Notes under the pieces: model-generated
What the model was told of the DNA's origin: nothing
The model's database searches: none
What the model saw: the letters and a program-made list of their open reading frames with translations, nothing else
Shown here: positions 8,763 through 26,177 of the stretch, piece by piece
Layout: the number at the start of each line of letters is the position of its first letter
How positions within the stretch are numbered: the stretch's first letter is position 1
Source: Planctomycetota bacterium
Lineage (GTDB): Bacteria; Planctomycetota; Planctomycetia; Pirellulales; Pirellulaceae
Assembly (NCBI GenBank): GCA_016872775.1
Contig: VGZA01000001.1
Span: 1-64,000 of the forward strand
Direction: 5' to 3'
Length of the DNA stretch: 64,000 nt
Program-made: the position numbers and the translations under genes

Positions 8763-9881
8763 ATGGCTGACAAAAAGAAGCTGTCGGTCGAGGAAATGCT
8801 GGCTGCCTGCCGCAAGCAGGACGGTGGAGGTGGTGCTGGAGCTACGGCGCCGCAAGCCCAGGAGGATCCCTCGTCGCAAGTAACTCCGCCGACCGAATCG
8901 ACGCCAACCAAGGCTACGAAAGCAACCCCTGCGGCGGCAGCCAAGCCGGCGGATCGGGCGAAAATGAGTGTGGCGGAGATGCTTGCAGCGGCTCGCGGAG
9001 AGAGATCGGAGAGCGCCAAACCGACTTCGCCCGCAGTGCCGGCGCGATCCGAAAAGGAAGCGGGGGCAGTTGAAAAAGCTGTGGTAGCGAAGGGTGCCGA
9101 GAAGGCGGCCGCGGTGAAAACCGCCAAGCCTGCCGCACCTCCGGTGGGCTCGCCATCGACAAAATCACCCGGCACGCTCGATACGGCGAGCATTCTCTCG
9201 GCGGTCCGATCGGCCGCAAAGCCGGGCCCCGTCTCCAAGTCCGAGGCCCCCGCGCGGACGAAGCCCGTCGAAGAAAAATCGAAGAAGATCGTTGTGCCGC
9301 CGATGCCGGAAAAGCCGGCCTACGCGGTCGCGCGGCCGATGAGCACCGCCGCCACCACCGAAACACGTCGCGGCTTCTTCGCCAGCGTCAATGCGAAAAT
9401 CGTCGGTTCGTCGCTCGCCCTGGGCTTCGCCTCGTTGACCGTCACCCATATCCTCTGGGTTCTTGGTCTGGCACGATTCATGTTTCCGAATATTCTCACC
9501 GAGCCGCCAACCCGATTCAAAGTCGGCTTCCCGGATGTGCTGGGGCTGGGTCAGGTTGACGAACGCTTCAAGGCCCAATTCGGCGTATGGATTGTCAAAG
9601 CCGAGTACGAAGGGCAGCCACAGATCTTTGCGATCAAATCCGTCTGCACCCACCTGGGTTGTACACCCAACTGGCTGGAGGCCGAGCAAAAATTCAAGTG
9701 CCCCTGCCACGGCAGCGGTTTTTACAAGGACGGTGTGAACTTCGAGGGCCCGGCCCCCCGACCGCTGGAACGCTACGCGATCCGGATCTCCGACGATGGG
9801 CAGCTGGAAGTCGACAAAAGTCGCGTATTCCACGAAGAGTTAGGCCAATGGAAAGACATTTCTTCGTTCGTTCCGGTGTGA
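8763..9881 (+). CDS. Rieske [2Fe-2S] protein with a long repeated N-terminal extension
   Basis: Quinol:cytochrome c/b6f-type Rieske subunit, 372 residues. The C-terminal Rieske fold contains both cluster motifs, CTHLGC (295-300) and CPCHGSG (313-319), supplying two Cys and two His ligands. A membrane anchor lies at about 213-240. Residues 1-200 are unusual: an Ala/Lys/Pro-rich low-complexity stretch with three related helices, LSVEEMLAACRK (7-18), MSVAEMLAAARGER (68-81) and LDTASILSAVRS (139-150). Typical Rieske proteins have only ~30 residues before the anchor, so this extension is cytoplasmic by topology and probably disordered apart from the short helices. It is the first gene of the respiratory cluster, 46 bp before cytochrome b. 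Confidence 0.95.
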   Translation: MADKKKLSVEEMLAACRKQDGGGGAGATAPQAQEDPSSQVTPPTESTPTKATKATPAAAAKPADRAKMSVAEMLAAARGERSESAKPTSPAVPARSEKEAGAVEKAVVAKGAEKAAAVKTAKPAAPPVGSPSTKSPGTLDTASILSAVRSAAKPGPVSKSEAPARTKPVEEKSKKIVVPPMPEKPAYAVARPMSTAATTETRRGFFASVNAKIVGSSLALGFASLTVTHILWVLGLARFMFPNILTEPPTRFKVGFPDVLGLGQVDERFKAQFGVWIVKAEYEGQPQIFAIKSVCTHLGCTPNWLEAEQKFKCPCHGSGFYKDGVNFEGPAPRPLERYAIRISDDGQLEVDKSRVFHEELGQWKDISSFVPV

Positions 9882-9927: not shown

Positions 9928-10704
9928 ATGCCATCGCTCAGCGAAATAATTCGTGAGTCGCAGATCTGGAAGAGCATCTTTCGTCATCCGATGCCGGTCG
10001 ACCGCCGCAATCGGATCGTGGTGATGCTGACCAATTTCTTTCTCCATCTGCACCCCGTTTCGGCTAAAAAGCAAGGGATTGCGCTGAGCTATACCTGGTG
10101 CATGGGCGGGGTGACATTCTTTCTTTTCCTGATCGAGACGATCACGGGCGTGCTGTTGATGTTCTACTACCGTCCGACGCTGGAGTGGGCCTATAGCGAT
10201 ATCCTGGCTCTGCGCGACGTCACGTCGCTCGGACTGATGCGGGAGTTACATCGTTGGGGTGCCCACGCGATGGTGATCACGGTATGGCTGCACATGTACC
10301 GTGTTTTTCTGACGGGTAGTTACAAGCCCCCGCGTGAGTTCAATTGGGTCGTTGGGGTGATCCTGCTGTTATTGACGCTCCTGCTGTCGTTCACGGGGTA
10401 CCTGTTGCCCTGGGATCAACTGGCAATCTGGGCGATCACGGTGGGTTCGAACATGGCCCGCGCCCATCCGGTGCTGGGGCACGAGGGCCCCGGCGCGGCG
10501 CTGTTGACCGTCGACGGAATCGACATGATCACCAATGCCTCGGACGCTCGCTTCGGGCTGTTGGGCGCGCGTTTTGTCGGCGAAGAGACGTTGAACCGTT
10601 TTTACGTGCTGCATTGCGTGGCGATTCCTTTGGCGGCTTCGCTGTTAATCGCGATCCATTTCTGGCGGGTACGAAAGGACGGCGGGATCAGCGGACCGCT
10701 GTAG
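9928..10704 (+). CDS. Cytochrome b N-terminal half (PetB/QcrB-like)
   Basis: About 258 residues with four predicted transmembrane helices, equivalent to cytochrome b6 or the N-terminal half of bc1 cytochrome b. The b-haem ligand region [20 protein letters not shown] and the later [21 protein letters not shown] carry the paired His ligands, and the helix-C/quinol region TGYLLPWDQ is the family hallmark. It oxidises quinol together with the Rieske protein. The second half of cytochrome b is encoded by the next gene 15 bp downstream, so this is the split, b6f-like arrangement. The ATG at 9928 has a weak ribosome-binding site. Confidence 0.95.
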
Positions 10705-10719
10705 TGGGAAACAACAAAC

Positions 10720-12105
10720 ATGCATGGGCATCTTCCCCTGGACGAATTCCTGGTTCAAATACGCGGCTTCCTGGGCTCCTACTACGTCGCATTGGCCACG
10801 ATGAATGCGATCGCGGCGCTCTACCTCTGGCAGACCGGCAAGTCGAAAATCTGGTTGAGGGTGGGGCCGATCGAACTGAGCAGTTCGCTCGCCTGCCTGG
10901 CCGCGTCGGGTCTTTTTCTGCTGGTCAGTCCGATCGCCTATTCCGTCGATCCGTCCCTGGTGGATGTCATCTCAATTCCCAAACCGTTGCGGGCGGGGCT
11001 CGACAAAGCGATGACGCCGGTCAGTTATTCGATCGGCACTTTTTTCGTGCTGGCGGTACTGTTCGTGGGGCGTCGCTGGTTTTCGCGGCCGGAAATCGCC
11101 TGGACCGGTCTGAACCTGAGCCTGCTGCTCATGGGTTTTTCGATGACCGATCAGAACTTCGCATCGGTGGTCACCAAACCCGATAATGTGCCGATTGTGG
11201 GGCTTGTTTTTCTGCTTGGATTTTTCACCTGGCTGGCGACGCGACGGGCGGTGCTGAACGACGAGCGAGCCGCGCGGGGTGAGCCGCCGCTGGAAGCCCT
11301 CGACTCGGAAAAAGTCCTGGTCTGGCCCGACCTGGTCTACACGGAGTTGATCTGCATGGTGGCGCTGACAGCTCTGATGTTGCTCTGGGCGATCGGCCTG
11401 CAAGCGCCGCTGGAGGAACCGGCCAGCGCCATGAAAACCCCCAACCCCTCGAAAGCACCCTGGTACTTCCTCGGCCTGCAGGAGATGCTCGTCTACTACG
11501 ATCCTTGGATGGCCGGAGTCGTCCTGCCCGTCACCGTCATTGGCGGGCTGATGGCAATTCCTTATCTGGATTTCAACAAGCTGGGGAACGGGTATTACAC
11601 GATCACGCAACGCCGATTCGCGTACGTGACGTTCCAATTCGGATTCCTCGTGCTTTGGATCACGCTGATCGTCATGGGAACGTTCTTGCGCGGGCCGAAC
11701 TGGAACTTCTTTGGCTTCTACGAAACCTGGGATGCTCACAAAGTGGAGGCCCTGAACAATGTCGACTTATCGCAGCACTTCTGGATCTCGCTGCTGAATC
11801 GCCCGATGCCGAAGGCCCCGGAAAACTCCGATCTGCTCGTGAAGATCGTCTACGTCGTCTTCCGCGAACTGCCCGGAATCGCGCTGATCGCCGGTTATTT
11901 CACGGTCCTCCCACCGCTGCTGGTGATCTTCCCGCCATTCAGCGCGCTGTTCCGGAACATGTATCTGAAGATGGGCTTCCTGCGCTACATGGTGATGTCG
12001 AACCTGTTGCTGACGATGGCATTGCTGCCGATCAAAATGGTGCTGCGTTGGACCATCAACCTGAAATACTTTATTGCGATCCCTGAGTACTTGCTGAATT
12101 TCTGA
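10720..12105 (+). CDS. Cytochrome b C-terminal half (subunit IV-like) with an extra N-terminal membrane domain
   Basis: 461 residues, versus ~160 for ordinary subunit IV (PetD). The recognisable core begins near residue 205 (VWPDLVYTELI) and includes TPNPSKAPWYFLGLQEMLVYYDPW, the conserved PetD/cytochrome b C-terminal segment containing a PxxW-type quinone-site motif, then three or more helices. Before it come about 200 residues with four or five transmembrane helices and no family I recognise. After it are two further helices (about 375-440). The whole has around ten membrane spans. Its place between cytochrome b N-half and the octahaem cytochrome shows it belongs to the bc-type complex. Confidence 0.88.
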   Translation: MHGHLPLDEFLVQIRGFLGSYYVALATMNAIAALYLWQTGKSKIWLRVGPIELSSSLACLAASGLFLLVSPIAYSVDPSLVDVISIPKPLRAGLDKAMTPVSYSIGTFFVLAVLFVGRRWFSRPEIAWTGLNLSLLLMGFSMTDQNFASVVTKPDNVPIVGLVFLLGFFTWLATRRAVLNDERAARGEPPLEALDSEKVLVWPDLVYTELICMVALTALMLLWAIGLQAPLEEPASAMKTPNPSKAPWYFLGLQEMLVYYDPWMAGVVLPVTVIGGLMAIPYLDFNKLGNGYYTITQRRFAYVTFQFGFLVLWITLIVMGTFLRGPNWNFFGFYETWDAHKVEALNNVDLSQHFWISLLNRPMPKAPENSDLLVKIVYVVFRELPGIALIAGYFTVLPPLLVIFPPFSALFRNMYLKMGFLRYMVMSNLLLTMALLPIKMVLRWTINLKYFIAIPEYLLNF

Positions 12106-12141: not shown

Positions 12142-15100
12142 ATGCCGGCAACGGAACAAACCTGGCGAGACCAGAAGCGCTTGCACTCGATTTTCATGGC
12201 AAGCGCCCTGGGGTTACTTGGCGCGACACTTTGGATGTTGAGCGCCGACCACAACCGCGAATGGAAACGGTTTCAAGACCAGGCGCGGGATGTCGAACAG
12301 GCGAATAACGAATGGACGCAGCTGCAGTTCGAAACCGACGAGCAGTTTCGCGAACACGAACAACTATCGCTGGCCTGGGACCTGACTCGATCCCAGCCGG
12401 TGTCCGACCGTGATCTGGAAGCATTCGCATCCGAATTGGCGGACCAGGCCCGTCGGGAAACCGATGCGCTGCGGGCCGTTCAGCCGACGGCCGCCGCGAT
12501 CACTCCGACATCGATCGAAAAAATTCGCAAGAGAAACGATGAGCTCAAGGATGCGGCCGCCGCCGTCCTCGATGCGCTCACCGACGAAGGCGCGGCCTCG
12601 CGCCGCAAGGCGATCGACCTTCGCGAACAGGTGCTGAACCAGCTGCGGACGATCGCAAGTCAGGTCCAGTTCCGCGAGAAGGTTACGCTCGATGCCCGCA
12701 AGAAGCGTAATGCCGATCTGGACGCCGCCAAAGCGAATGTCGACATCGCGGTCCGCGACGGCCTCAGCGAAGCCCGAACACGCCAGCTCCAATTGGATGC
12801 CGACACGATCAAAGCCGATCTCGACGGCATCACTTTGAACTACCAGCGACTCAACGATCACCGCAAGGCCCTGGACAGCATCGTGCGCCGCGTCACCGCG
12901 GGCGAGGACGAATCGAAGAAGAAACTGGATGCCAGCAAAGCTTCCCTGAAGTCCTTGGAGTCGGCATACAAGCAACGCGATCTGGCCTACATTAACTGGG
13001 TCGGTCCATTTCCGATGCCTGGCAAGCGACTTTTGACTTTGCCGATCATCGACGCGTTCCAGTCGCCGCGGAAGATCGATAACTTGTGGAGCGACGACAA
13101 TACGATCAATTACAACTTCCGCTATGTGCGCCGCTTCGACCGGTGCACCACCTGCCATCAACTCATGGAAAAGTCGATGGCCGGAGCCGCCGACAAGCCG
13201 GCGTTTATCCGCGCGTCGAATGTCGATTTTCGCCTCGACGTTCCCGATCGAGCGCGGCGCGAAGAAGTCTTGAAGTCGACCGACGATGTCGAGCAACAGC
13301 TGTACCAGCTCTATGGCGTTCGATTCGCCGAGCAGGGGTTATTGTCCAAGGACGACGTCACGGTCACTCTGGTTCGCCCGGAATCGCCCGCGGCGCTGGC
13401 GACCGCTGGTGGCGACACTACAAAGCTCACGGGAGCCGGTATCCGCGACGCCCTGGTCGCCTCGAATGTTGCGCAGTCGGTCGACAGTTACCCCATCCGC
13501 CCCGGGCTCGCCACAGGGGACGTGATTACCGAGATCGATGGAAATGCAATTCGCTCCCGAGATCAGGCCGAAAGGCTGTTGCTGCAGTCGGTGAAATGGG
13601 GCTCGCCGCTGCGACTCACCGTCCGCCGTGGCGTACCCAACCCTTTTACCTCGCATCCGCGGCTCGATCTTTTCGTCGGTTCGATGAGTCCCCACAAGCT
13701 GGCCACATTTGGTTGCACAACCTGCCATGAAGGCCAGGGCAGCTCAACGTCGTTCCAATGGGCTTCGCATACGCCCGACGGCGTGAATGATCGCAAGGAG
13801 TGGGTCCAGGAGCATCACTGGCACGACAACGCCCACTGGATTTTTCCGATGTTCGCCAGGCGATTCGCCGAAAGCGCCTGCCTGAAGTGCCATCATGAAG
13901 TGGTCGAATTGGAAGCCAGTGAAAAGTTTCCGGAAACCCCCGCGCCGAAGGTCACCCACGGCTACCATCTGATCCTGAAGTACGGCTGCTTCGGCTGTCA
14001 TGAAATCAATGGCTTCGATGGACCCGCGAAACGGATGGGGCCGGATATGCGCCTGGAACCGAACTTCTTTGCCGCCGCGCAGCAGCTCAAAGCCTCGGTC
14101 GACTTTGCCGGATTCGACCCGCAGGATCGAGCCTGGATTGATGAGTTGATCGAGCACCCGGAACGCAATGAAGTGCGACACAGGCTCTATGAATCCCTGG
14201 CAAAACGAAACGAGGGCGCGTCCCCGTTGTCCACGACCAGCCAGAAACTGCTGCCAGTCCTCAAGGATGTCGAGGCTCCAGGCGTGCAGCGCAAGGCTGG
14301 GCCGAGCCTGCGGTTCGCCGGCTCCAAGATGGATGACCAGTTCCTGTTCGACTGGATCGCCGATCCTACCCATTTCCGCCCCAGCACCCGCATGCCGAAG
14401 TTCTTCAGCCTGCATAAACATCTCGACAATGAACCACACTCCAAGGAGTTGGCGCAGAAATACGAACAGATTGAGATTCTCGGAATCGTCGAATATCTGC
14501 GTCAACGCTCCCAGCCGTTTGAGTATCTTCCGGCGGCCGCCGGGATCACTCCCAGTACCCGGGACGATCAGATCGCCCGCGGCAGAGTCGCATTTGAAGA
14601 GCGAGGTTGTCTGGCCTGCCATACCCATAAGGATTTCGCTGAGGTCGCCCGTTATCGCAAGACCGACCAGATCGTCCAGGGGCCGGATCTTTCGGAACTC
14701 GCCGACAAATTCGCCGAGGGTCGACACGCTCACGGCGCCCAGTGGCTCTACAGCTGGATTCGCCAACCAAGTCGCTATCACGTACGCACCGTAATGCCCG
14801 ATCTGTACCTCGATCCGATCGAGAAGCGCGATGAGTCGGGAAAAGTGATCGAAATCACCGACCCGGTCGCCGACATTGTCACCTATCTGCTCGACCGCCC
14901 CGCGGACTCGACGCAGGCCTCCTGGTCGCCACGTGGCAATCAACCGAGCCTGAAAGACCGCGACACTCGAAAGGTGCTGGACGAACTCGTCCGCGACAAT
15001 CTGCGCGAAGTATTCTCCGTGGCAGCCTCGGACCGCTATCTGCAGTCAGGAATTCCTGACGCGATGGCAAACGACCTCAAAGGCGCCGAAACCGAACTCG

Positions 15101-16911
15101 TGGCCGCGGCGGACCAGAAATCGCTTTCGGAGGAACAAAAGCTCCTCTACATCGGCCGCAAATCGATCGGCAAGTATGGCTGTTTCGGCTGCCATGATGT
15201 TCCCGGTTTCGAAGACGCCAAGCCGATCGGTACCGCTTTGGCCGATTGGGGGCGGAAAGATTCCTCGAAGCTCGCCTTTGAACATATCACGCATTATCTC
15301 GAGCATGGTCATGGGGGCGGCCATGCTGCGGGCCATCACGAGGCAGTCCACGGACCCGACGACGATCAATCCGCCGGTGCCCACGCCGACAACGGTCAGG
15401 ATCCGGACACCGTCTACTACCACCACCAGATTGAATCCGGAAACCGCATCGGATTCCTGTGGCAGAAATTGAAGGAACCCCGCAGTTACGATTTCCGTAA
15501 GACAGAGAACAAGCGGTACAACGAGCGGCTCAGGATGCCGCAGTTCCCGTTCAATGCGCACGAGCGTGAAGCGGTGATGGCATTCGTACTGGGACTCGTT
15601 TCCGATCCGCCGCCGGCCAAGTACCTGTTCAAGCCGGACGCATCGACCGCGGCGCTGATCGAGGGACGCAAGGTATTGGACAAGTACAATTGTGCAGGCT
15701 GCCATCTGCTTGCGCCGCAGAAATGGGAATTGGGATTCGCCAAGGATGCCTTGCAGGCGCCGGAATTCCAGGGATTTCCGTTCATGAAGACCCATTTCAA
15801 CAACGATTCAGTGCAGGCGTCGCTTAAAGTCGACCATCAAGGACGGCGTCATTCCACCGTCTTGGGCATGCCCACAGTTACCGACGACGACGCTCGACCG
15901 CTGGTGGAGGACGATCAGGGCGACCGCCTGGAAGGCGATGGCGTTTATGACCCTGCTAAGCTCACCTACCGTATCGACCTGCTGCGGCCATCGCTGGTAA
16001 ATGGAGCGGCTTACGAAGTGGGAGTCATGCCGCTGGCGGTCAGCAGTGCGCAACTCGAGTCGCGATCGCCGGCCGAAGGCGGCGTATTGGCCAGGTATTT
16101 GCTGTCCTCGGTAACCCGGCGTGAAAAGCTGTCCAATCCGGCTGCCAAGGGAAGTGAGTCGTGGGGCTGGGTGCCGCCTCCCCTGGTGGGCGAAGGGGAG
16201 AAAGTACAATCATCGTGGTTGCACGATTTCTTGCTGAATCCATTCCCGATCCGGCCTGCCGTCGTCCTGCGGATGCCTCGTTTTAATATGACGTCCGAGG
16301 AAGCGGCCTCGCTTGCTCGCTATTTCGCGGCGGTCGATCAGGTCGATTATCCGTACGACCTCAACAATCGACGCCGGACGGAGTATCTCGCGCGAGCCGA
16401 GTCGGAATATCAGTCCGAACTGCGCGAGTCCGACCCGCAGCGGAAAACGACGCGGCTGGACGATGCGATGCGAATCGTCACGAACAACAATTATTGCGTG
16501 AAATGCCATATCGTGAACGACTTTGAACCGAAAGGCAGCGAGCGGGCAAAGGCTCCCAATCTGGCCAAAGTCTACGAGAGATTGCGACCGGATTACGTTC
16601 GCCGCTGGATCGCCAATCCGAAACAACTCCTGCCGTACACGAGCATGCCACAGAACATTCCGTTTCCGGCGGGAATCGACAAAAAGCTCTATCATGGTGA
16701 CAGCGTTCAACAGGTCGACGCACTGGTCGACCTTTTAATGAACTTTGACGAATATGCGCAGCGGCAGAGTCGTATAGCGCCACTCGTCCAGCAGAATCCG
16801 GCACCGGCGGCTGCTGGCGCTGGTTCCGCATCGACGACCGCCCCGGGCGCGGGTGCGGTTCAGGGGCAAGGTTCGGGACAAGTTTCCGGGCAGGGCGGCC
16901 AGAGTAATTAA
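12142..16911 (+). CDS. Giant membrane-anchored octahaem c-type cytochrome with PDZ-like segment
   Basis: 1589 residues. One N-terminal transmembrane helix (~18-37) anchors a very large periplasmic part. Residues ~40-290 are charged, helical and coiled-coil-like. Eight CxxCH haem-binding motifs start at residues 335, 525, 580, 616, 823, 1014, 1184 and 1452. Between the first two is a PDZ-like segment (GLATGDVITEIDGN, ~455, followed by PLRLTVRRG). A His-rich loop lies near 1050-1080, and the C-terminus is an Ala/Gly/Gln tail. Several haem modules share the pattern KYGCFGCHEI/DVPGF, suggesting internal duplication of a cytochrome c domain. Directly downstream of split cytochrome b, it is positioned to replace or extend cytochrome c1 as electron conduit to the oxidase. 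I know of no standard family name for the whole architecture. Confidence 0.9.
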   Translation: MPATEQTWRDQKRLHSIFMASALGLLGATLWMLSADHNREWKRFQDQARDVEQANNEWTQLQFETDEQFREHEQLSLAWDLTRSQPVSDRDLEAFASELADQARRETDALRAVQPTAAAITPTSIEKIRKRNDELKDAAAAVLDALTDEGAASRRKAIDLREQVLNQLRTIASQVQFREKVTLDARKKRNADLDAAKANVDIAVRDGLSEARTRQLQLDADTIKADLDGITLNYQRLNDHRKALDSIVRRVTAGEDESKKKLDASKASLKSLESAYKQRDLAYINWVGPFPMPGKRLLTLPIIDAFQSPRKIDNLWSDDNTINYNFRYVRRFDRCTTCHQLMEKSMAGAADKPAFIRASNVDFRLDVPDRARREEVLKSTDDVEQQLYQLYGVRFAEQGLLSKDDVTVTLVRPESPAALATAGGDTTKLTGAGIRDALVASNVAQSVDSYPIRPGLATGDVITEIDGNAIRSRDQAERLLLQSVKWGSPLRLTVRRGVPNPFTSHPRLDLFVGSMSPHKLATFGCTTCHEGQGSSTSFQWASHTPDGVNDRKEWVQEHHWHDNAHWIFPMFARRFAESACLKCHHEVVELEASEKFPETPAPKVTHGYHLILKYGCFGCHEINGFDGPAKRMGPDMRLEPNFFAAAQQLKASVDFAGFDPQDRAWIDELIEHPERNEVRHRLYESLAKRNEGASPLSTTSQKLLPVLKDVEAPGVQRKAGPSLRFAGSKMDDQFLFDWIADPTHFRPSTRMPKFFSLHKHLDNEPHSKELAQKYEQIEILGIVEYLRQRSQPFEYLPAAAGITPSTRDDQIARGRVAFEERGCLACHTHKDFAEVARYRKTDQIVQGPDLSELADKFAEGRHAHGAQWLYSWIRQPSRYHVRTVMPDLYLDPIEKRDESGKVIEITDPVADIVTYLLDRPADSTQASWSPRGNQPSLKDRDTRKVLDELVRDNLREVFSVAASDRYLQSGIPDAMANDLKGAETELVAAADQKSLSEEQKLLYIGRKSIGKYGCFGCHDVPGFEDAKPIGTALADWGRKDSSKLAFEHITHYLEHGHGGGHAAGHHEAVHGPDDDQSAGAHADNGQDPDTVYYHHQIESGNRIGFLWQKLKEPRSYDFRKTENKRYNERLRMPQFPFNAHEREAVMAFVLGLVSDPPPAKYLFKPDASTAALIEGRKVLDKYNCAGCHLLAPQKWELGFAKDALQAPEFQGFPFMKTHFNNDSVQASLKVDHQGRRHSTVLGMPTVTDDDARPLVEDDQGDRLEGDGVYDPAKLTYRIDLLRPSLVNGAAYEVGVMPLAVSSAQLESRSPAEGGVLARYLLSSVTRREKLSNPAAKGSESWGWVPPPLVGEGEKVQSSWLHDFLLNPFPIRPAVVLRMPRFNMTSEEAASLARYFAAVDQVDYPYDLNNRRRTEYLARAESEYQSELRESDPQRKTTRLDDAMRIVTNNNYCVKCHIVNDFEPKGSERAKAPNLAKVYERLRPDYVRRWIANPKQLLPYTSMPQNIPFPAGIDKKLYHGDSVQQVDALVDLLMNFDEYAQRQSRIAPLVQQNPAPAAAGAGSASTTAPGAGAVQGQGSGQVSGQGGQSN

Positions 16912-17033
16912 TCGACAGGCCGTCGTGGTGGCAAGCACGTTCGCTTCCACGGCATCGTTGAAAATAGTAAAGCAAGGAAAACCGGCGTGGCCCACGGCAT
17001 CTGCCACGCAATTTGAAAGACAAGGGGTTTGCA

Positions 17034-17813
17034 ATGGTTCGCCAAATCGCATTGAGTCTGGCATGCGTCTGCCTTTGCTCGCGTCTACTGGCCGCCGATT
17101 TCGGAGATATTACGGCGACATTTGTTCTGGACGGAACGGCTCCGGCTCCAAAAAAACTGGATACCGCGAAAGAACCGCTGTGCGTTAAAGAAGGTGAGGC
17201 CATGTATGACGAGCGACTCACCGTGAATAAGGAGAACGGCGGCGTCAAGGACGTCGTGGTTTACCTGTTTCTGAAGCCGGGCGAGAAGGCCCCCGAAGCG
17301 CATCCCGACCAGAAAAAGCAGGCCGAAACGCCCGTGGAGCTGGACAACGCCGGCTGCCGGTTCGTACCGCGGATCGCCCTGGTGATGACCAACCAGCAAC
17401 TGGTGGTGAAGAACAGCGACAAGTTCGGCCACAACACCAATTTGTCGTTGATCGACAACCCGGCCCAGAATCCCAACCTGCCGTCGGGCGGCAAAGTTGA
17501 ATTCAAGTTTGCCAAGTCGGAGAAAGTGCCGATTCCGGTGGCCTGCAACATTCATCCCTGGATGGGTGGCTATGTGGTGGTGAAGGACCATCCGTTCATG
17601 GCGGTGTCGGACGCAAACGGTAAATTGACGATCAAGAACGTGCCGACCGGTTCCCGTACGTTTCAGTTATGGCATGGATCGTTCATCTCGGAAGGCAAGC
17701 AGAACGGTAAAGCGGTAAAGTGGGAGCGTGGCCGTGTGACCCTGGACGTCAAGGCTGGCACCAACGACCTCGGTGAGATCAAGATTCCGGTCAAGCATTT
17801 TCAATCCAAGTAG
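17034..17813 (+). CDS. Exported cupredoxin-like protein 1
   Basis: About 259 residues with a signal peptide (MVRQIALSLACVCLCSRLLAA). The C-terminal half has the spacing of a type 1 copper site: His133 in KFGHN, then Cys171, His174 and Met177 in CNIHPWMGG. This is the plastocyanin/azurin C-xx-H-xx-M signature, in a plastocyanin-like family sometimes annotated as methylamine-utilisation-like. A small periplasmic copper electron carrier between the octahaem cytochrome and the oxidase is the natural role; copper chaperoning is possible. ATG 17034 is preferred over 17013 because AAGGGG precedes it at proper distance and the signal peptide starts there. It is a paralogue of the next gene. Confidence 0.82.
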   Translation: MVRQIALSLACVCLCSRLLAADFGDITATFVLDGTAPAPKKLDTAKEPLCVKEGEAMYDERLTVNKENGGVKDVVVYLFLKPGEKAPEAHPDQKKQAETPVELDNAGCRFVPRIALVMTNQQLVVKNSDKFGHNTNLSLIDNPAQNPNLPSGGKVEFKFAKSEKVPIPVACNIHPWMGGYVVVKDHPFMAVSDANGKLTIKNVPTGSRTFQLWHGSFISEGKQNGKAVKWERGRVTLDVKAGTNDLGEIKIPVKHFQSK

Positions 17814-17845
17814 TCCAAACGCCTCCCTAGAGGATGAGGTTCCCG

Positions 17846-18775
17846 ATGCGGTTTAATTTCGGTCGATCGTCGAGCGTGTTTTGCCGGTGTTGGCTGTTGT
17901 CGGCAGCCGCATTGGCGATCGGTCCTGGTTGCGGCAATGCTCCGCTGCCGGTACAGGTCGACATGCGCCGCGCGGCGGCAATGCGGGCTGACCTCGAAGC
18001 CGGAGCCGCGCAATCGGCCGGCGCCGAAACAGCAACAACGGAAACTCCGGCCGGGTGGGCCACGCTCAAAGGGAGTTTCAAAATCAACGGATCGGCGCCC
18101 GATCGCAAGCCTCAGGCGGTCGACAAGGAACGGGAGGTCTGTGCGCCGGGCGGCAAGACGCCGCTCAGCGAGGAAATTGTCGTTGGCGCCAACGGTGGAA
18201 TTCGCGACGTGGTCATCTTCCTGTCCTCCGTGATTTCCGACGACGAACCGTGGACGCACCCCGACGCGAAGCCAGGCAAATCGGATGAAGTCCTGTTCGA
18301 CCAGAAGGGTTGCCAGTTTCTCACGCATGTGCTGGCGCTACAGCCGACACAATTGCTGAGAATCAAGAACAGCGACCCGGTGGGCCACAACACCAGCCTC
18401 AAGCCCAAGAAGAACCGCCAGGATGACCAGACCGTGGCGAGCGGATCGACGACGACTTACCAGGCGAAAGCCGAAGAGGCCGACCCGTTCCCGGTGTCGT
18501 GCGCCATTCATCCATGGATGAAGGCCTGGGTCGTGATGCGCAAGAATTCCTACATCGCGGTCAGCAAGGACGACGGATCGTTTGAGATCCCGAATCTGCC
18601 GGCGGACGTCAACTTGGAATTCCGCGTATGGCAGGAAAAGACAAATTATGTGCAGGCGGTTTCGGTGAACGGCCAGCCGCAGAAATGGGCCAAAGGCAAG
18701 TTCAAAATGAAACTGGAGCCGAGCTCGACTCAGGAACTGAATGTCTCGATAGACAGCGGCCTGTTTTCGAAGTAA
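17846..18775 (+). CDS. Exported cupredoxin-like protein 2 (paralogue)
   Basis: About 309 residues. The N-terminus is hydrophobic and ends at a Cys (GPGC), so it could be a lipoprotein, although the -3 and -2 residues are not canonical lipobox residues. A ~40-residue Ala-rich linker follows. The core aligns by eye with the preceding gene: both have an NSD..GHN segment and the copper-site pattern, here His181, Cys219, His222 and Met225 (CAIHPWMKAW). The tandem pair looks like a local duplication followed by divergence, 32 bp apart. The start at 17846 is favoured over 17834 because the GAGG element is only correctly spaced for the second ATG. Confidence 0.8.
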   Translation: MRFNFGRSSSVFCRCWLLSAAALAIGPGCGNAPLPVQVDMRRAAAMRADLEAGAAQSAGAETATTETPAGWATLKGSFKINGSAPDRKPQAVDKEREVCAPGGKTPLSEEIVVGANGGIRDVVIFLSSVISDDEPWTHPDAKPGKSDEVLFDQKGCQFLTHVLALQPTQLLRIKNSDPVGHNTSLKPKKNRQDDQTVASGSTTTYQAKAEEADPFPVSCAIHPWMKAWVVMRKNSYIAVSKDDGSFEIPNLPADVNLEFRVWQEKTNYVQAVSVNGQPQKWAKGKFKMKLEPSSTQELNVSIDSGLFSK

Positions 18776-18802
18776 TCACGGTGACCTTGTTTGGGTGGTG
18801 AA

Positions 18803-20098
18803 ATGCGATTTGATCGAGGATGCAAAAATACGACGGCTGCGTTCCTGTTGCTCGCCGTGACGCTGTGCGGATGCGCTGACCCTCCGGCCGTCTTTGTCTT
18901 GAACGATGCTTACTACGCTCATATCGAACGCAAGACGCAGACGACATTCGACCCGCGCAGTCGCGACGATATCGGCCTGATCCTGGCTTCGTCTTTTGGC
19001 GAACCGGACGATCCCTACGTCCCACTCATCGCGGATCTTGACGCGACCGAAATTCTGGACCTTACCCGCGTCAAGCAGTCGTCCGGCCGCGTCTGGAGCG
19101 ACAAAATCGGGATCGCACGCGGGTTGTATCGCGAGCATTGCATCCACTGTCACGGCATGAGCGGCGATGGGCTGGGGCCCACTGCGTCATTCCTCAATCC
19201 GTATCCTCGCGATTATCGAATGGGAATCTTCAAGTTCAAGTCGACCGGGAAGGGGCTCAAGCCTACCCACGACGATCTGGTGAGGATTCTGACCGAGGGC
19301 ATTCCTGGAACCGCCATGCCATCGTTCAAAGTCCTGGACAAAGACGAGATCGAATCGCTGGTCCATTATGTGCGGTATCTGTCGATACGCGGCGAACTCG
19401 AAAGGAAGCTGATCGAACTGCTCCCGGACGTCGAAGACCGATTGCTCGATGATGCCTTGCGCGGCAAACAGGACGACAAGTACAAGGCCCAATGGGACAC
19501 GATCCGCGGGACGGCTCGCGAAGTGATGGAAAAGTGGGTTCAGGCCGAACAGGAAGTCCTGCCGGTGCCGGCGCGCCCCGACGGCTGGCAGGATCCCGAG
19601 ACGATGCGGGCATCGGTGGAGCATGGCCGCAAGCTATTTTATGGAAAGGTCGCTAACTGCTTCAGTTGCCACGGAGATTCCGCGCTTGGCGACGGCCAGA
19701 CCCAGGGCGTCGACGCATGGACTCGCGAGCTGCTGAACGATAAAGAACAGTTTCTGGGACTGGCGAAAATGACGCCTGAGGAGCGGGATCGCTTCGAGTA
19801 CCTCAAAGCGCGCGACCCTCGCATATTGCCTCCGAGAAACATCCGCCCGCGCAACTTGCGGCAAGGTATCTTCCGCGGCGGGCGGCGTCCGATCGACGTT
19901 TACTTGCGAATCGTCAACGGGATCGATGGCACTCCGATGCCGTCGGCGCCGTTGCTTAAACCGGGTGAAGCGCCCAATCCGGGAAAGCTCTCCAGCGACG
20001 ATGTCTGGAGCCTGGTGGATTATGTACGCAGTCTGCAATACGAATCGATCAGCAATCCGAACGATCACGAACCGGTAGTGACCAGGGAGCGACTGTAG
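18803..20098 (+). CDS. Dihaem cytochrome c lipoprotein
   Basis: About 431 residues. The N-terminal signal with lipobox-like LCGC suggests a membrane-tethered lipoprotein. Two class-I cytochrome c modules carry CIHCH (residue 113) and CFSCH (286), each followed at a distance by a Met-containing segment (IPGTAMPSF; IDGTPMPSAP) that would provide the axial Met. It lies immediately before oxidase subunit II, which itself lacks a fused haem c domain, so this protein is the likely electron donor to the CuA centre. The TTG at 18791 is rejected in favour of ATG 18803, preceded by GGTGG. Confidence 0.9.
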   Translation: MRFDRGCKNTTAAFLLLAVTLCGCADPPAVFVLNDAYYAHIERKTQTTFDPRSRDDIGLILASSFGEPDDPYVPLIADLDATEILDLTRVKQSSGRVWSDKIGIARGLYREHCIHCHGMSGDGLGPTASFLNPYPRDYRMGIFKFKSTGKGLKPTHDDLVRILTEGIPGTAMPSFKVLDKDEIESLVHYVRYLSIRGELERKLIELLPDVEDRLLDDALRGKQDDKYKAQWDTIRGTAREVMEKWVQAEQEVLPVPARPDGWQDPETMRASVEHGRKLFYGKVANCFSCHGDSALGDGQTQGVDAWTRELLNDKEQFLGLAKMTPEERDRFEYLKARDPRILPPRNIRPRNLRQGIFRGGRRPIDVYLRIVNGIDGTPMPSAPLLKPGEAPNPGKLSSDDVWSLVDYVRSLQYESISNPNDHEPVVTRERL

Positions 20099-20140: not shown

Positions 20141-20983
20141 GTGGGACGTTTTTGGAGCATACTTTTTCTGCTCGTGCCAGTGCTGGGGGTCTTGACCTTC
20201 GTACTGGCGATCAACGAGGTCGGACCGTTTTACCGACATTGGCTGCCGGTCAATATCAACGATCACGGTGGTATTATCGACAGCCTGTTCATGTTCATAC
20301 TTTATCTGACAGGCGTGATTTTCGTCGCCACGGGGCTGGTGCTGTTCTGGTTCCTCTGGAAATATGACGTGGCGAAGAACCGGGCGCCGGTCAAGTTCTC
20401 GCACGGCAGTCACACACTGGAAGTCATCTGGTCGATCCTGCCAGCGGCCACGCTGCTGTTTATCGCCATCTACCAGATGAACGCCTGGGCCGATGCCAAG
20501 CTTCGCCGGCCTCTGCTGTCGACAGGTCCCGACAAGACCGCCGGAACGCGAGACGACGTCGTTCAACCGCCTCTGGTGGAAGTCACCGCACGGCAGTTTG
20601 AGTGGCGGATTCGCTACGCCGGCTCCGACGGGCAGATTGGCACTCCCGATGACGTTTATACCGTCAACGACCTGCACATACCTGTCGATGAAGAGGTGGT
20701 ACTGCAACTGAAGAGCATGGACGTGCTGCATAGCTTTTTCCTGCCCCACATGCGGGTGAAACAGGATGCCGTGCCTGGAATGAAGCAGTTTCTCTGGTTC
20801 CGCGCAAATCGCACGGGCACGTACGATCTGGTTTGTGCCGAACTGTGTGGCTGGGGTCACTACAAGATGCGAGGCAGGTTGTACGTCGAATCGCGGCAGC
20901 AGTTCGACAAGTGGTTGAAGGAAAAGTTTCAAGAACAAGAGCAGACGGAACTCAAGGGTCCTCCGGCGGAGAGTGCGGAATGA
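20141..20983 (+). CDS. ctaC: Cytochrome c oxidase subunit II (CuA)
   Basis: 280 residues. Two or three N-terminal hydrophobic segments anchor a periplasmic CuA domain with ligands His197 (DVLHSFF), Cys232 and Cys236 (CAELCGWGH), His240 and Met243, all intact. The CuA centre accepts electrons from cytochrome c. A 20-30 residue insertion around residues 127-145 (PLLSTGPDKTAGTRDD and later SDGQIGTPDDV) contains Asp/Gly-rich loops resembling calcium-binding turns. The start is GTG at 20141 with GGAG upstream. The stop overlaps the subunit I start (ATGA). Confidence 0.96.
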   Translation: MGRFWSILFLLVPVLGVLTFVLAINEVGPFYRHWLPVNINDHGGIIDSLFMFILYLTGVIFVATGLVLFWFLWKYDVAKNRAPVKFSHGSHTLEVIWSILPAATLLFIAIYQMNAWADAKLRRPLLSTGPDKTAGTRDDVVQPPLVEVTARQFEWRIRYAGSDGQIGTPDDVYTVNDLHIPVDEEVVLQLKSMDVLHSFFLPHMRVKQDAVPGMKQFLWFRANRTGTYDLVCAELCGWGHYKMRGRLYVESRQQFDKWLKEKFQEQEQTELKGPPAESAE

Positions 20984-22812
20984 GCGGTACCACAGTAGAT
21001 TCACATCAATCGGCGGCGGATCATGCGCATGGCCATGCCCATAGCGGTTCGCACAGCGGAATCGGACATTTTCTCAATACCTACGTCTTCTCCCGCGACC
21101 ACAAGATCATTGGCCTGCAGTTCCTGTTTTCCACCCTGCTCTGGTTTCTGGTCGGCGGACTGTTGGCACTGGGAATCCGCTGGCAGGTGGCATTCCCCTG
21201 GAAGACCATGCCGGTGATCGGTCCAGCGTTGTTTTCCGCGGAAGGTGGACAGATCTCTCCGGAGTTCTACACCACGTTGGTGACTATGCACGCCACCGTT
21301 ATGATTTTCTTCGTCATCATTCCGATCCTGGCGGGCGCGTTCGGCAACTATCTGATTCCGCTGATGATCGGCGCCGACGACATGGCGTTCCCGGTCTTGA
21401 ACATGCTGAGTTATTGGTTCATGTGGCCGGCATTCATCTGCATCGGCAGCGCCTTTTTTCAGCAACCGTATGGTGCCGGCGCGGGATGGACTTCGTATCC
21501 TCCTTTGTCGGCGATTCCCGAAGCGGCTCCCGCAAGCGCCACCGCGCAGACCATGTGGCTGATCGGTATCACGTTCGTCGGCGTCTCCTCGATGATGGGG
21601 TCGGTCAATTATCTGACGACCATCATCCAGATGCGAGCGCCGGGGATGACGATGTTCCGATTGCCGCTGACGATCTGGGCCATGTTTATTACCGCGATCC
21701 TGCAGGCATTCGCGCTGCCGGTGCTCACCGCCGCGGGGTTCATGCAGGTAACGGACCGCTTGCTGGGCACGGGCTTTTTCCTGCCGGAAGGTCTCTCGGT
21801 CAATAACGCGGAACCGGTCAGCGGCGGCGGACAGCCACTGCTCTGGCAACATCTGTTCTGGTTCTATTCCCATCCCGCGGTCTACATCATGATCCTGCCG
21901 GCGATGGGAATGGTGTCGGACATCATTGCCTGTTTCTCACGCAAGCCGATCTTTGGATACAAGCCGATGGTCTATTCGATCTCCGGCATTGCCGGGCTCG
22001 GATTTATCGTCTGGGGTCACCATATGTTTGTTTCCGGCATGCACCCGATGCTGGGAATGACGTTCATGGTCGCAACGATGATGATCGCGCTGCCCAGCGC
22101 CGTGAAAGTGTTCAACTGGTTGGGAACGATCTGGGGCGGAAAAATCCAGTTCACCACACCGATGTTGTTTTCTCTTTCGTTCGTCTCGATGTTCATCATC
22201 GGCGGCTTATCCGGTATTTTCATGGCCGCAACGCCGGTCGACATTTTTATCCACGACACCTACTACATCGTGGCCCACTTCCATTACGTCCTGTTTGCGG
22301 GTACGGCGATGGGCGTCTTCGGCGCCATCTACTTCTGGTACCCGAAGATGTTCGGCCGGATGATGAATGAGTTCTGGGGTAAGTGGCATTTCTTCCTGAC
22401 GTTTGTGTTTTTGAACGGGACATTTTTCCTGATGCATGTGTTGGGCGCCGTCGGTTTTCCGCGGCGGTTGGCCGATCCGTACGAGTACGACATCTTTCGG
22501 CCGCTGCAGCCGATGAATCAATTCATCACGATCTGCGCGATCGGCATGGTAGCCAGCCAGGTGATTTTCGCCGCCAACTTCTTCCTCAGCATGTTTTTCG
22601 GATCGCGCGTCGGACGCAATCCCTGGAATGCGAATTCGTTGGAGTGGATGGCGCCTTCGCCGCCCGGACATGGCAACTTCGATTTTCAGCCGGTCGTTTA
22701 TCGCGGTCCTTATGAATACGGATCACCGGAGGTCGACATCGATTACTATCCGCAGACGATGCCGCCGCCTGCCGGAGTCTCACCGATTGCCGGGAACCGC
22801 GGCGCGCATTAA
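20980..22812 (+). CDS. ctaD: Cytochrome c oxidase subunit I
   Basis: About 610 residues of a haem-copper oxidase catalytic subunit (type A). Conserved segments are visible: the low-spin haem His region TTLVTMHATVMIFFV, the CuB/haem a3 region FWFYSHPAVYIMILPAMGM (His-Pro; the E/V-Y cross-link helix), HHMFVSGMHP and HFHYVLFAGTAMGVFGAIYFW. It reduces oxygen to water and pumps protons. The first ~30 residues are His/Gly-rich (HAHGHAHSGSHSG), as in subunits III and IV of this cluster. The start is fixed by the ATGA overlap with ctaC; an in-frame upstream extension inside ctaC is rejected. Confidence 0.97.
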   Translation: MSGTTVDSHQSAADHAHGHAHSGSHSGIGHFLNTYVFSRDHKIIGLQFLFSTLLWFLVGGLLALGIRWQVAFPWKTMPVIGPALFSAEGGQISPEFYTTLVTMHATVMIFFVIIPILAGAFGNYLIPLMIGADDMAFPVLNMLSYWFMWPAFICIGSAFFQQPYGAGAGWTSYPPLSAIPEAAPASATAQTMWLIGITFVGVSSMMGSVNYLTTIIQMRAPGMTMFRLPLTIWAMFITAILQAFALPVLTAAGFMQVTDRLLGTGFFLPEGLSVNNAEPVSGGGQPLLWQHLFWFYSHPAVYIMILPAMGMVSDIIACFSRKPIFGYKPMVYSISGIAGLGFIVWGHHMFVSGMHPMLGMTFMVATMMIALPSAVKVFNWLGTIWGGKIQFTTPMLFSLSFVSMFIIGGLSGIFMAATPVDIFIHDTYYIVAHFHYVLFAGTAMGVFGAIYFWYPKMFGRMMNEFWGKWHFFLTFVFLNGTFFLMHVLGAVGFPRRLADPYEYDIFRPLQPMNQFITICAIGMVASQVIFAANFFLSMFFGSRVGRNPWNANSLEWMAPSPPGHGNFDFQPVVYRGPYEYGSPEVDIDYYPQTMPPPAGVSPIAGNRGAH

Positions 22813-22841: not shown

Positions 22842-23894
22842 ATGCACGTTGGTTCGCCAAACTCGATTTCACCTTGGCCCGCGCGGTGGGCGATCGTACT
22901 GGCGTGCGCTACGTTTCCGTTAATCTGGGTCGGTGGACTGGTCACGACCTATGACGCAGGAATGGCCGTACCCGATTGGCCGACCACTTACGGCCACAAC
23001 ATGTTCGCCTACCCCGTGCTGGACTGGCTGCGCGGACCGTGGGATATGTTCATTGAGCACGGTCATCGATTGCTAGGTTCCCTGGTCGGCATGATCGCCA
23101 TCGGGTTGAATGTCAGCGTATTTCGAAATGAGCGGCGGGGTTGGCTGCGTGTACTCGCAGTGGTGGCACTGCTGGCGGTGATTTCCCAAGGGGTCCTGGG
23201 AGGCATGCGGGTCCGTTTTGACAATCGGCAACTGGCGATGATCCATGGCTGTTTCGGTCCGGCCTTCTTCGCTTTTGCAGTAGCCTACGCTTGCTTCCTG
23301 TCGCCCGACTGGTCGAAGGTCTCGGCGGGCCGCCTCGATCGATCCGGGCAACGCATCCTGCGACTGTCGGCGGTTCTGGTTGTGTTGACCTACTTGCAGT
23401 TGATTCTGGGCGCTTCGATGCGGCATCTCACGTCGCAGATTTCACCCGACTTTTTCCGGATCCTGGTTATCTTCCATCTGATCAATGCGCTCGCCATCGC
23501 GGCACATATCGCCGTCCTCCGTGTCCGAATCGCGGCGAATTTCCCGCGCGTGTTGGGATTGCTGCTGCCGGTGCGTGGAGTTCTGTATCTGGTCAGCGTC
23601 CAACTGGCACTGGGGGTCGGTACCTGGGTCGTCAAATACGGTTGGCCGGAATGGGTATCGAACTGGGACTTTGCCGCCGGCTATCTGATCGCGGCCAAGA
23701 GCCATTCGCAGTCGATGACGGTCACCGCTCACGTCGCAATCGGCTCGCTGATCCTCGCGGCAAGCGTGTTGCTGCTGGCCCAAACGGCCCGGCGCTTTCT
23801 CCCGACCGGCGCCAGCCCGTCGCGTCCCTATTCCGCCGACCGTCGCGACGGCGCCAACCGCCCGTCCGGCCTGGCGATGGAGGCGGTCCGATGA
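22842..23894 (+). CDS. ctaA: Haem A synthase (COX15/CtaA family)
   Basis: 350 residues with about eight transmembrane helices. It oxidises haem O to haem A for the aa3 oxidase. Haem-ligand His motifs are present: EHGHRLLGS, MIHGCFGPAFF, VIFHLINALAIAAHI and VTAHVAIGS. The segment AVPDWPTTYGHNMF is the periplasmic-loop signature of the family. It sits directly after ctaD and overlaps ctaB by ATGA, making a haem A assembly pair. The last ~45 residues are Arg/Pro-rich and likely cytoplasmic. Confidence 0.95.
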   Translation: MHVGSPNSISPWPARWAIVLACATFPLIWVGGLVTTYDAGMAVPDWPTTYGHNMFAYPVLDWLRGPWDMFIEHGHRLLGSLVGMIAIGLNVSVFRNERRGWLRVLAVVALLAVISQGVLGGMRVRFDNRQLAMIHGCFGPAFFAFAVAYACFLSPDWSKVSAGRLDRSGQRILRLSAVLVVLTYLQLILGASMRHLTSQISPDFFRILVIFHLINALAIAAHIAVLRVRIAANFPRVLGLLLPVRGVLYLVSVQLALGVGTWVVKYGWPEWVSNWDFAAGYLIAAKSHSQSMTVTAHVAIGSLILAASVLLLAQTARRFLPTGASPSRPYSADRRDGANRPSGLAMEAVR

Positions 23895-24796
23895 GCGTTT
23901 CCACGACGGCCATTCGTCCCGGATTGACTCTCGGCTCGCGCGCGGCGGATTGGATCGAATTGTGCAAGCCGCGAATCAGCCTGATGGTCCTGGTGGCCGT
24001 CGCCATGGCCGCGTTTCTGGCGCGCTGGGGCGACATCGAATTTGTGGTCTTGGCGCACACGTTGTCTGGAGTAGCGTTGGTCGCGGCGAGCGCCAGCGCG
24101 ATCAACCAGTTGCTGGAGATCGAAACCGACGCACGGATGGATCGGACCCGCGGACGCCCGCTGCCGTCAGGGCGGCTCTCCGTTCGCGCCGTTCGCCGAT
24201 TCGCGCTGATCGCAATCGTGGTCGGGTTGGCCCAATTCTTGTGGTTCGTAAATTCCGCCGCGGCGGCCTGGGCATTCGCAACATGGCTGATCTACGGCTT
24301 CATCTATACGCCCCTGAAGCGCCGCTCGGCGTTCAATACGGTGGTCGGCGCCGTTTCCGGCGCAACGCCGATCCTGATCGGCTGGACTTCGATGGGCGTT
24401 CCGCTCGACCTGCGGGCGATCGCATTGACCATGATCCTGTTTCTCTGGCAATTTCCGCACTTCATGGCGATCGCTTGGCTCTACCGGCAGCAATATGCCG
24501 ACGTCGGAATCCGCATGCTGACGGTGATCGATCCGACAGGCACGCGCGCCGCGATTCAAGCGGTGGCCGCGGCGCTTGCCTTGCTGCCGGTCAGCTTTGT
24601 CCCGGCGCTTTACGTTGCCGCTCCCGGCGCATCCCTCTACGTCGTCCTGGCATTCGTACTCGGCGTCGCGCAACTGATCTTCGCCATCCTGTTCTTCGCG
24701 ATCCGCAGCCGCTGCACGGCGACCTGGCTGCTGAAAGCGTCGTTGATCTACCTGCCGTTGTTGCTGGTACTTTTGATGTTACTCCCCTGGTTCTAA
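23891..24796 (+). CDS. ctaB: Protohaem IX farnesyltransferase (haem O synthase)
   Basis: 301 residues of the UbiA prenyltransferase superfamily. The first Asp-rich motif appears as [21 protein letters not shown], in which the usual N-x-x-x-D becomes N-x-x-x-E; the [10 protein letters not shown] signature of CtaB is exact. The second motif is in the [13 protein letters not shown] segment. It transfers a farnesyl group to haem B, giving haem O, the substrate of CtaA encoded just upstream. Start fixed by the ATGA overlap. Confidence 0.96.
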
Positions 24797-24824
24797 CTGT
24801 TGCAATTGCGAACGGATCTATCCC

Positions 24825-26177
24825 ATGTCGGAATCTGATACTCACCACGGCGATCACGGACACGGTCACATCAAGCTGGTCTACCAGCCGGCCTTGCCCA
24901 TCCCCAACGGAAAGACCTGTTTGTGGTTGTTCCTTTCGACGGAGATCATGTTCTTCGCGGGATTGATCGGCACCTACATCGTATTGCGATTTGGTGCACC
25001 TTCGGGGACCTGGCCGCTGCCGCACGACGTGCACCTGTCGGAACCGATTGGAGCATTCAATACGTTCGTTTTGATCTGCTCCAGCGTGACCATTGTGCTG
25101 GCGTTGGAAATGGCCAAGGCCAATCGCACCGGCGCGGCCAAAGGGTTGTTGTTTCTGACGTTTATTCTGGGCGGCGTATTCTTGAGCGTAAAAGCTTACG
25201 AATACAACGCGAAGTTCGCTCACGGAATTTATCCGTCAATGCCGCACAGCCTGATTTATGACAAGGCCGATATCCATTACGTGGCAGCCGTCCGGCAACG
25301 GCTGGCGACATTAATCAGCGATCTCGACAAAGATCGCGCCGACTACGAAACGATGCCTGGCGAGCGCGACCAGTTGTCTGCGGAACGCACCGACACCGAA
25401 ACGCGACAGAAAGATCTGCGTGCCGAACGGTCCAAAGCGGATGCCGGTCGCCGTAAGGAAATCGACGGCGACCTGGAAACCAATGAGAAGTCCCTGCAGC
25501 GCATCAGTCGCCGATTGGCGGAGATCGAAACGCGGTTACCGGTGCTCAAAGCCAGCGAACAGGAACGCAATACGCGACTGGCGATCTGCAAGGATCTGCA
25601 GCGCTACGTCGTGCAGGCCGCGGAAATCAACGCCGCGACCGATTCGGACCGAGCGGATCGCGAAGCGGCCATGGAATTACTCGCCGACCTGATCTATCCC
25701 ATTGGCGGAATGCGCCCGCTGGCGTATCTCGACGACTACGCGAGTAAACTCCGCGTCCGTCGCGGCGATTTGGCCGGATCGGTCGATTCGGCCGCGAATG
25801 ATGAGTTGGCCAAAGCGGCGTTGACCGACCAGGTCGACCGGATTGACGGCTGGCTCCGTCTGGTGCCGGGCGTCAGCCTTACTTCGGCGCCCGCCTCGGA
25901 AAAGCCGCTCGTCAAGCTTGAACAAGGGCTGAACGAGGAATACCATTGGCTGCGATTGCCAATCCGCATCCCCAGCGGAAATATGTGGGCCAGCACTTAT
26001 TTCCTACTGACCGGGTTTCACGCAATCCACGTTGTTGTCGGGCTGATTCTCTTCATTGTCGCGCTGCCCCGAAATCTTGACAGCTCCCAAGCCTACTTTT
26101 TGGAAAACAGTGGTTTGTACTGGCACTTTGTGGATCTGGTCTGGATTTTTCTGTTCCCCTTACTGTACTTGTTCTAG
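24825..26177 (+). CDS. ctaE: Cytochrome c oxidase subunit III with a ~245-residue helical insertion
   Basis: 450 residues where about 200 are normal. Residues 31-125 are three ordinary CtaE helices ([31 protein letters not shown]). Residues 386-450 are the last two ([37 protein letters not shown]). Between them, where most homologues have a short loop, are residues ~135-385: a highly charged stretch with heptad-like Glu/Arg/Leu patterning ([18 protein letters not shown]) typical of a long antiparallel coiled coil, then a compact helical part. The frame is continuous and codon use matches the neighbours, so it is not an assembly fusion. The N-terminus is His-rich (HHGDHGHGH). Catalysis does not depend on subunit III; the insert may scaffold the complex. 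Confidence 0.93.

Follow-up and report, generated by a model that had tools for sequence, protein, structure and literature searches.

The window analysed here, a 64,000-nucleotide stretch (positions 1 to 64,000 of contig VGZA01000001.1) from a Planctomycetota bacterium, carries an operon whose genes all lie on the forward strand, in the order Rieske protein, cytochrome b6, subunit IV, octahaem cytochrome, two cupredoxin-like proteins, dihaem cytochrome, COX2, COX1, CtaA, UbiA-family protein, and COX3. The octahaem c-type cytochrome (12142..16911) starts with an ATG and is 1589 aa long. Its eight CxxCH motifs, at residues 335, 525, 580, 616, 823, 1014, 1184, and 1452, extend over ~1120 residues and account for all 16 Cys of the protein. 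Among 20,000 shuffles of the same sequence, the mean was 0.006 motifs, and none had two or more. The octahaem ORF that the first-pass annotation had described is therefore borne out, as is its position after Rieske, b6, and subunit-IV-like genes, where a cytochrome c1 or f gene would be looked for.

The Rieske protein (8763..9881; Pfam Rieske, 35.8 bits) has an Ala/Pro/Lys-rich N-terminal extension of ~180 aa. Among 100 neighbouring Rieske ORFs of relatives, the cluster boxes CTHLGC and CPCHGSGF are present in 100 and 92, respectively. The extension (window positions 8763-9300) repeats a short motif like SVEEMLAA, and 23/100 relatives' ORFs have two or more such motifs in their first 220 aa. 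The next two ORFs are separate and match Cytochrome_B/Cytochrom_B_N_2 and Cytochrom_B_C, respectively. The cytochrome b6-type subunit (9928..10704; Pfam Cytochrome_B, 140 bits) has His108, His122, His229, His244, and Cys58. A PDB search found b6 proteins at E 7.9e-43; the top-scoring bc1 cytochrome b reached 1.5e-25. Only three hydropathy peaks exceed the threshold, so the four helices of this subunit are assigned by homology. Cys58 aligns with residue 35 of spinach b6 (6rqf chain I), which we take to be the site of covalent haem cn, and its column holds Cys in 92/101 rows, Gly in seven, and a gap in two. A haem cN is also named for the b6-type cytochrome by Hauser et al. 2025 (PMC12954380). 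Downstream lies a 461-aa subunit-IV (petD)-like membrane protein (10720..12105; Pfam Cytochrom_B_C, 25.5 bits). It carries KAPWY, a motif shared by 104/106 relatives' ORFs, at the place of the usual PEWY. The protein has nine hydropathy peaks, and relatives range from 277 aa (in presumed anammox bacteria) to about 500 aa; together, these suggest that several helices were gained in the window's lineage.

The octahaem protein itself is modular. Its single hydrophobic stretch, residues 17-35 (12190..12246), is a predicted N-terminal transmembrane helix (residues 11-37 in the AlphaFold2 model). A helical arm follows (residues 40-283; 12259..12990), modelled as helices 40-65, 68-83, 89-110, 122-142, 148-205, and 210-283, and variable in length among relatives. 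Where the first-pass annotation had proposed ~250 residues of coiled coil, ~240 residues of predicted helical arm thus precede haem 1; the helical part of that claim holds. Haem 1 (CTTCH, 13144..13158) and haems 2 and 3 (CTTCH at 525 and CLKCH at 580; 13714..13893) make up a c7/c3-like module. Between haems 1 and 2 lies a DegP-like PDZ domain (residues 445-497; 13474..13632), a lineage-specific insert that scores 31 bits with Pfam PDZ_2 (cut-off 27) and 3.6e-8 in a profile comparison with DegP; a PDZ-like interruption of the haem region had been correctly recognized at first pass. Haems 4-8 (616, 823, 1014, 1184, and 1452; 13987..16761) belong to five class I domains, assigned from Met conservation and mutual hhalign matches. 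AlphaFold2 was confident overall for residues 500-1589 (mean pLDDT 85.1, pTM 0.86). Residues 1-640 scored lower (pLDDT 79.8, pTM 0.70), with weak stretches near haems 1-3, so the fold of these haems rests on sequence models.

Comparisons with known structures found similarity to single domains. Foldseek with both AlphaFold2 models returned nothing at E <= 0.001, and the matches listed by a PDB sequence search were to PDZ and single cytochrome c domains, with no full-length homologue among them. In a VIA second look, SoxX reached Z 9.3 over model positions 293-422 (octahaem residues 792-921), and cytochrome c1 chains reached Z up to 7.4 over model positions 907-1042 (residues 1406-1541). Since a Z under 8 may reflect the common class I fold alone, we refrain from identifying the haem-8 domain as c1. 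That part (residues 1451-1534), one of eight haem parts, also matches the SoxX model at 68.2 bits (cut-off 61), which we read as domain likeness only.

Conserved residues divide the haems into two groups. Met751, Met885, Met1132, Met1378, and Met1502, one per domain for haems 4-8, are Met in 101/101 octahaem sequences. His505 and His518 are conserved in 100/101 and 101/101, respectively, and a His between haems 2 and 3 is present in all 101, at the position of His543 in 87. From this conservation, haems 1-3 are probably bis-His and haems 4-8 His/Met ligated. C7/c3-type models match haems 1-3 of the window protein and its relatives, and the same region in one relative (L053) also matches an MtrC/MtrF domain model (E 1.3e-9). 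The haem modules had been thought to be internally duplicated, and for haems 4-8 this is upheld: nine of the ten internal hhalign pairs among class I modules score E 3.6e-10 or better, and the pair 6-8 scores 2.6e-8. However, the ten pairs formed with modules of the neighbouring dihaem cytochrome range from 1.5e-9 (module 5) down to 2e-4, so the best outside pair exceeds the weakest internal one and counts partly against duplication. Modules were cut around the CxxCH and the conserved Met, which itself favours a match.

Downstream, two cupredoxin-like proteins (17013..17813, with CNIHPWM and without a Pfam family over the cut-off; 17834..18775, with CAIHPWM) share a C..H..M motif with 131/143 relatives' ORFs, and we take this C-x2-H-x2-M spacing to be amicyanin-like. 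The dihaem cytochrome c (18791..20098) matches Pfam Cytochrom_C in two stretches (60.6 bits), and 56/61 relatives' ORFs have two CxxCH. Oxidase subunit II (20141..20983; Pfam COX2) has a CuA motif, as do 61/61 relatives' ORFs. Subunit I (20833..22812; COX1 model match) probably starts near residue 49 of its ORF, and an ORF scan placed the CtaA, UbiA-family (CtaB-like), and COX3 genes at 22842..26177. Encoded between the octahaem and CuA proteins, the cupredoxins and the dihaem cytochrome could serve as mobile carriers.

We then considered the whole genome, whose stated completeness is 99.91%. A search for a separate cytochrome c1 gene (PF02167) found none, with a positive Caulobacter control, in agreement with the earlier claim that no ordinary c1 is present. 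Cytochrome f (Apocytochr_F_N, PF16639; Synechococcus control positive) and bd oxidase likewise gave zero matches in the genome. PF02167 is not among the eight families matching the octahaem protein, and family models rule out its identity as cytochrome c1 or f. An octahaem of the HAO/OCC type was also rejected: the protein is not matched by Multi-haem_cyto (PF13447), yet this model finds an eight-haem ORF in L053. Alternative complex III was dismissed on zero NrfD (PF03916) matches in the genome, with controls positive in 4/14. COX1 has one match in the whole genome, inside the octahaem operon. Rieske proteins are encoded at six places, two of which, one in the window and one on contig C47 (L084:7716-11287), adjoin a cytochrome b. 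The C47 locus, overlooked by the first-pass annotation, encodes a second Rieske/cytochrome b complex with a 958-aa fusion of cytochrome b and c-haem domains (three CxxCH, one CxxxCH; Pfam Cytochrom_C in four stretches). Hence, the octahaem-linked complex is not the sole b complex of this genome. Kuenenia, too, is described as having, in addition to its multihaem b complexes, one whose cytochrome b carries a fused c domain (PMC12954380).

Octahaem relatives are widespread in the phylum. With the single window protein as query, matches at 1e-10 occurred in 82/199 sampled genomes (67/157 genera). A cytochrome b model matched 122/199 genomes, including all 82 octahaem-positive ones (Fisher p 1e-25, uncorrected for kinship); 40 of the 122 had no octahaem match at this threshold. 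One of these, from the window's own family (G121, 99% complete), indicates that closely related genomes can differ by loss or replacement of the octahaem. Cytochrom_C1 matched 7/199 genomes, five over the cut-off, each over a stretch of 30-55 of the model's 219 positions. A report of no bc1 and alternative complex III in Phycisphaerales (PMC11266412) agrees with the absence of an octahaem match from many genomes of the phylum. A plasmid collection searched in protein mode had no match to the octahaem, and none of 14 pattern stretches in viral contigs was confirmed as one.

The gene company of these relatives was followed in two sets. First, among 40 phylum regions that we chose from the 82 positive genomes, Rieske, b6, subunit IV, and octahaem occur together in 33; in four others (L051, L052, L059, and L060), Rieske adjoins the octahaem and b6 and subunit IV are outside the region. 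COX1 lies within only 16/40, so the oxidase is not the octahaem's constant partner. Second, a scan of named contigs gave 529 relatives, of which the best 80 were kept (78 titled planctomycetes). The scan relied on haem-2 and haem-4/6 motif patterns and could therefore miss relatives that have lost such motifs. The stretch from Rieske to COX1 is complete in 40 of the best 80 of 529 loci, and all 40 share the order Rieske-b6-IV-octahaem-cupredoxin(1-3)-dihaem-COX2-COX1; 29 of these 40 are identical through COX3.

Haem number is fixed, whereas the parts outside the core vary. Exactly eight CxxCH are present in 101/101 sequences (40 from the phylum regions, 60 complete ones from the best 80 of 529, and the window), a count that omits 20 of the best 80 loci cut by contig ends (4-8 motifs) and retains L055 (cut by a contig end) and L037 (first motif off haem 1, and omitted from the tree). 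Between 74 and 778 residues (median 295) precede haem 1; mis-called starts may inflate the largest values. The haem 1-2 spacing exceeds 120 residues in 50/101 sequences, and phmmer detected the PDZ in 44/101, window included. On a 100-row tree, the long spacer requires seven changes versus 33.7 in shuffles, which marks it as a lineage trait outside the core. We conclude from these comparisons that the helical arm and PDZ domain are lineage extras and not defining features of the octahaem family. Some record titles look wrong: a "Nealsonbacteria" bin (L161) and "Candidatus Kuenenia"-titled bins (L093, L100, L107, L109, L122, and others) contain the long PDZ-bearing or oxidase-linked planctomycete form. 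We therefore gave titles no weight for taxonomy below phylum.

Four phylum regions (L053, L054, L072, and L073) have a different arrangement: Rieske, b6, an ORF of 566-570 aa, subunit IV, and an octahaem of 945-954 aa. In L053, the one scanned, the 566-570-aa ORF is a Pyr_redox/Fer4 oxidoreductase. Their octahaems match the window protein at phmmer E of about 1e-62 to 1e-64, have eight CxxCH each, and align with it at all eight haem columns. We presume from gene order, the oxidoreductase, and His62 numbering that these are anammox bacteria with an operon of the Kustd1480-1485 type. In Kuenenia stuttgartiensis, the Kustd1480-1485 and Kuste4569-4574 complexes have a multihaem c subunit at the place of cytochrome f, and subunits of the latter comigrate (Hauser et al. 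2025, PMC12954380). As in the published description of Kustd1480-1485, the window encodes a b6-like cytochrome b, a subunit-IV-like protein, a Rieske protein, and a multihaem c protein (octahaem in the window, hexa- or octahaem in Kuenenia) that replaces cytochrome f. Unlike it, the window operon is joined to cupredoxins, a dihaem cytochrome c, and an aa3-type oxidase, and no NAD(P) oxidoreductase gene is present among the ORFs scanned from 8763 to 26177; in addition, the window protein has 1589 aa and a PDZ insert. Long helices of Kustd1485 wrap the complex in an AF3 model (PMC12954380).

Residues 40-43 of the window b6 are HLHP. His40 and His42 are present in 99/99 rows with a residue there, and His42 and Pro43 are as well conserved as His40. 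His40 aligns with a His at position 62 in L053, L054, and L073; the PDB b6 alignments begin after His40, so the comparison with ordinary b6 proteins stops short of this residue. In a published AF3 prediction, two His62 of Kustd1481 flank an additional b haem at the dimer interface, and the proposal made there ties this haem to the NAD(P) oxidoreductase (PMC12954380). As the window operon does without that enzyme, the putative haem-b ligand His40 does not follow it. Other causes, such as structure or lipid, may also account for the conservation of His40.

The c subunit of Rieske/b complexes usually carries one or two haems; the actinobacterial bcc-aa3 supercomplex, for example, has a membrane-bound dihaem QcrC. 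The window operon resembles this supercomplex in gene adjacency, with a membrane-anchored multihaem c protein encoded next to an aa3 oxidase, and differs in its b6 plus subunit IV and its eight haems. With cytochrome b6f it shares a split b6 and subunit IV, a Cys at the haem cn place, and a Rieske protein, and departs from it in having an octahaem instead of cytochrome f, KAPWY instead of PEWY, and a far larger subunit IV.

We consider it likely that the octahaem is the c-type subunit of a b6f-like Rieske/cytochrome b complex and relays electrons from the Rieske protein towards the oxidase. Several features read from sequence converge on this proposal: the gene set, the membrane anchor, haem number, ligand conservation, duplication, co-occurrence with cytochrome b, and the single oxidase. 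A complex is supported by operon order, the conserved loci, cytochrome b in 82/82 octahaem-positive genomes, the fixed haems and Met ligands, the b6 character of cytochrome b, and a genome with one COX1 and without c1, f, bd, or NrfD matches, as well as by the published Kuenenia complexes. Evidence for the oxidase link comes from the operon, the single COX1, and the lack of bd and NrfD matches. Four observations count against the proposal. First, 40/122 cytochrome-b genomes have no octahaem match at 1e-10. Second, COX1 lies in only 16/40 regions. Third, b6 and subunit IV are outside the region in four of the 40 with Rieske beside the octahaem. Fourth, the C47 complex could feed the same oxidase.

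We infer the physical complex, the docking haem, and the direction, order, and potentials of electron transfer as follows. The N-terminal helix would anchor the octahaem in the membrane, with the remainder on the positive side. Quinol would be oxidised at the b6/subunit IV site and one electron passed to the Rieske cluster, which would dock on one high-potential His/Met haem among class I domains 4-8. The electron would then be relayed along the class I domains, through the cupredoxins and/or the dihaem cytochrome, to CuA and finally to O2. The c7-like, probably bis-His haems 1-3 would form a lower-potential part near the anchor, with a structural role or as a side entry or buffer.

A bolder form of this reading, raised by the first-pass annotation as an idea, is that the octahaem might be a direct wire in a III-IV supercomplex, with COX2 contacted by its distal haem domain and mobile carriers dispensable. 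The operon, conserved as far as COX1 at 40 of the best 80 of 529 loci, the single COX1, the long helical arm, and the linear set of five class I domains are all consistent with such a wire, and Foldseek listed a chain of the Corynebacterium III2-IV2 supercomplex, its dihaem subunit (7q21_C), at a non-significant E of 2.1. However, the two cupredoxin genes and the dihaem cytochrome of the operon look like carriers, the arm is nearly absent in relatives with 74-90 residues before haem 1, and many relatives have no oxidase nearby. We regard a direct wire as possible and rather doubtful.

The remaining alternatives fare worse. The C7/c3/MtrC-like matches and conserved His of haems 1-3, set against the Met-ligated haems 4-8, would also suit a periplasmic hub, in which haems 1-3 take electrons from periplasmic dehydrogenases, the class I domains pass them to the oxidase, and much of the traffic by-passes quinol; no donor was identified, however, and linkage to Rieske and cytochrome b is tight, which makes a hub unlikely. 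That the octahaem belongs to the oxidase and not to the b complex is highly improbable: the window has cox genes next to it, as do 40 of the best 80 of 529 loci, but Rieske, b6, and subunit IV accompany it in 33/40 phylum regions versus 16 for COX1, and the presumed anammox operon keeps it without oxidase genes. The Geobacter ext cluster also combines Rieske, cytochrome b, a membrane protein, and multihaem cytochromes, and ExtP and ExtQ of its ExtOPQ set supply the nearest NCBIfam models for the b subunits; its cytochromes have 4, 5, 10, and 12 haems and are accompanied by an outer-membrane porin (PMC5877670). An analogous export of electrons for extracellular transfer can scarcely be credited here, as ExtP on b6 (258.5 bits, cut-off 290) and ExtQ on subunit IV (55.7, cut-off 150) both fall short of their curated cut-offs, the scanned ORFs around the operon include none named as a porin or an outer-membrane cytochrome, and cox genes come next.

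Returning to a b6f-like complex with an octahaem subunit, this kind of replacement of cytochrome f in a b6-type complex is already published for anammox bacteria. What is new here is an oxidase-linked form without the oxidoreductase gene, the phylum-wide breadth, and the fixed haem number. Among the open-licence papers listed for the subject, none described a Rieske/b complex with an octahaem subunit from organisms other than anammox bacteria, a weak negative. An aerobic planctomycete appears to swap the usual one-haem cytochrome for a membrane-anchored eight-haem protein, whose haem number is constant in 101/101 sequences across the phylum and which in many genomes is joined to an O2-reducing oxidase. 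The anammox work calls the need for so many haems not entirely clear (PMC12954380). The aerobic form makes this question testable, since its operon lacks the oxidoreductase and still encodes both the haem arm and the putative ligand of the interface b haem.

A broader and more speculative idea, which we hold tentatively and think improbable as a whole, is that a third type of quinol:acceptor b complex, next to bc1 and b6f, is established in Planctomycetota, made of b6, subunit IV, Rieske, and an octahaem arm of fixed haem number. Its aerobic form would wire quinol oxidation straight to an oxidase, and the extra interface b haem (His40) would be a general inter-monomer electron bus and not part of an NAD(P)H-making device. 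At the far end of the operon, COX3 (24825-26177, 450 aa) contains an insert of ~200 charged residues with a helical or coiled-coil look, and so shares its operon with the helical arm of the octahaem.
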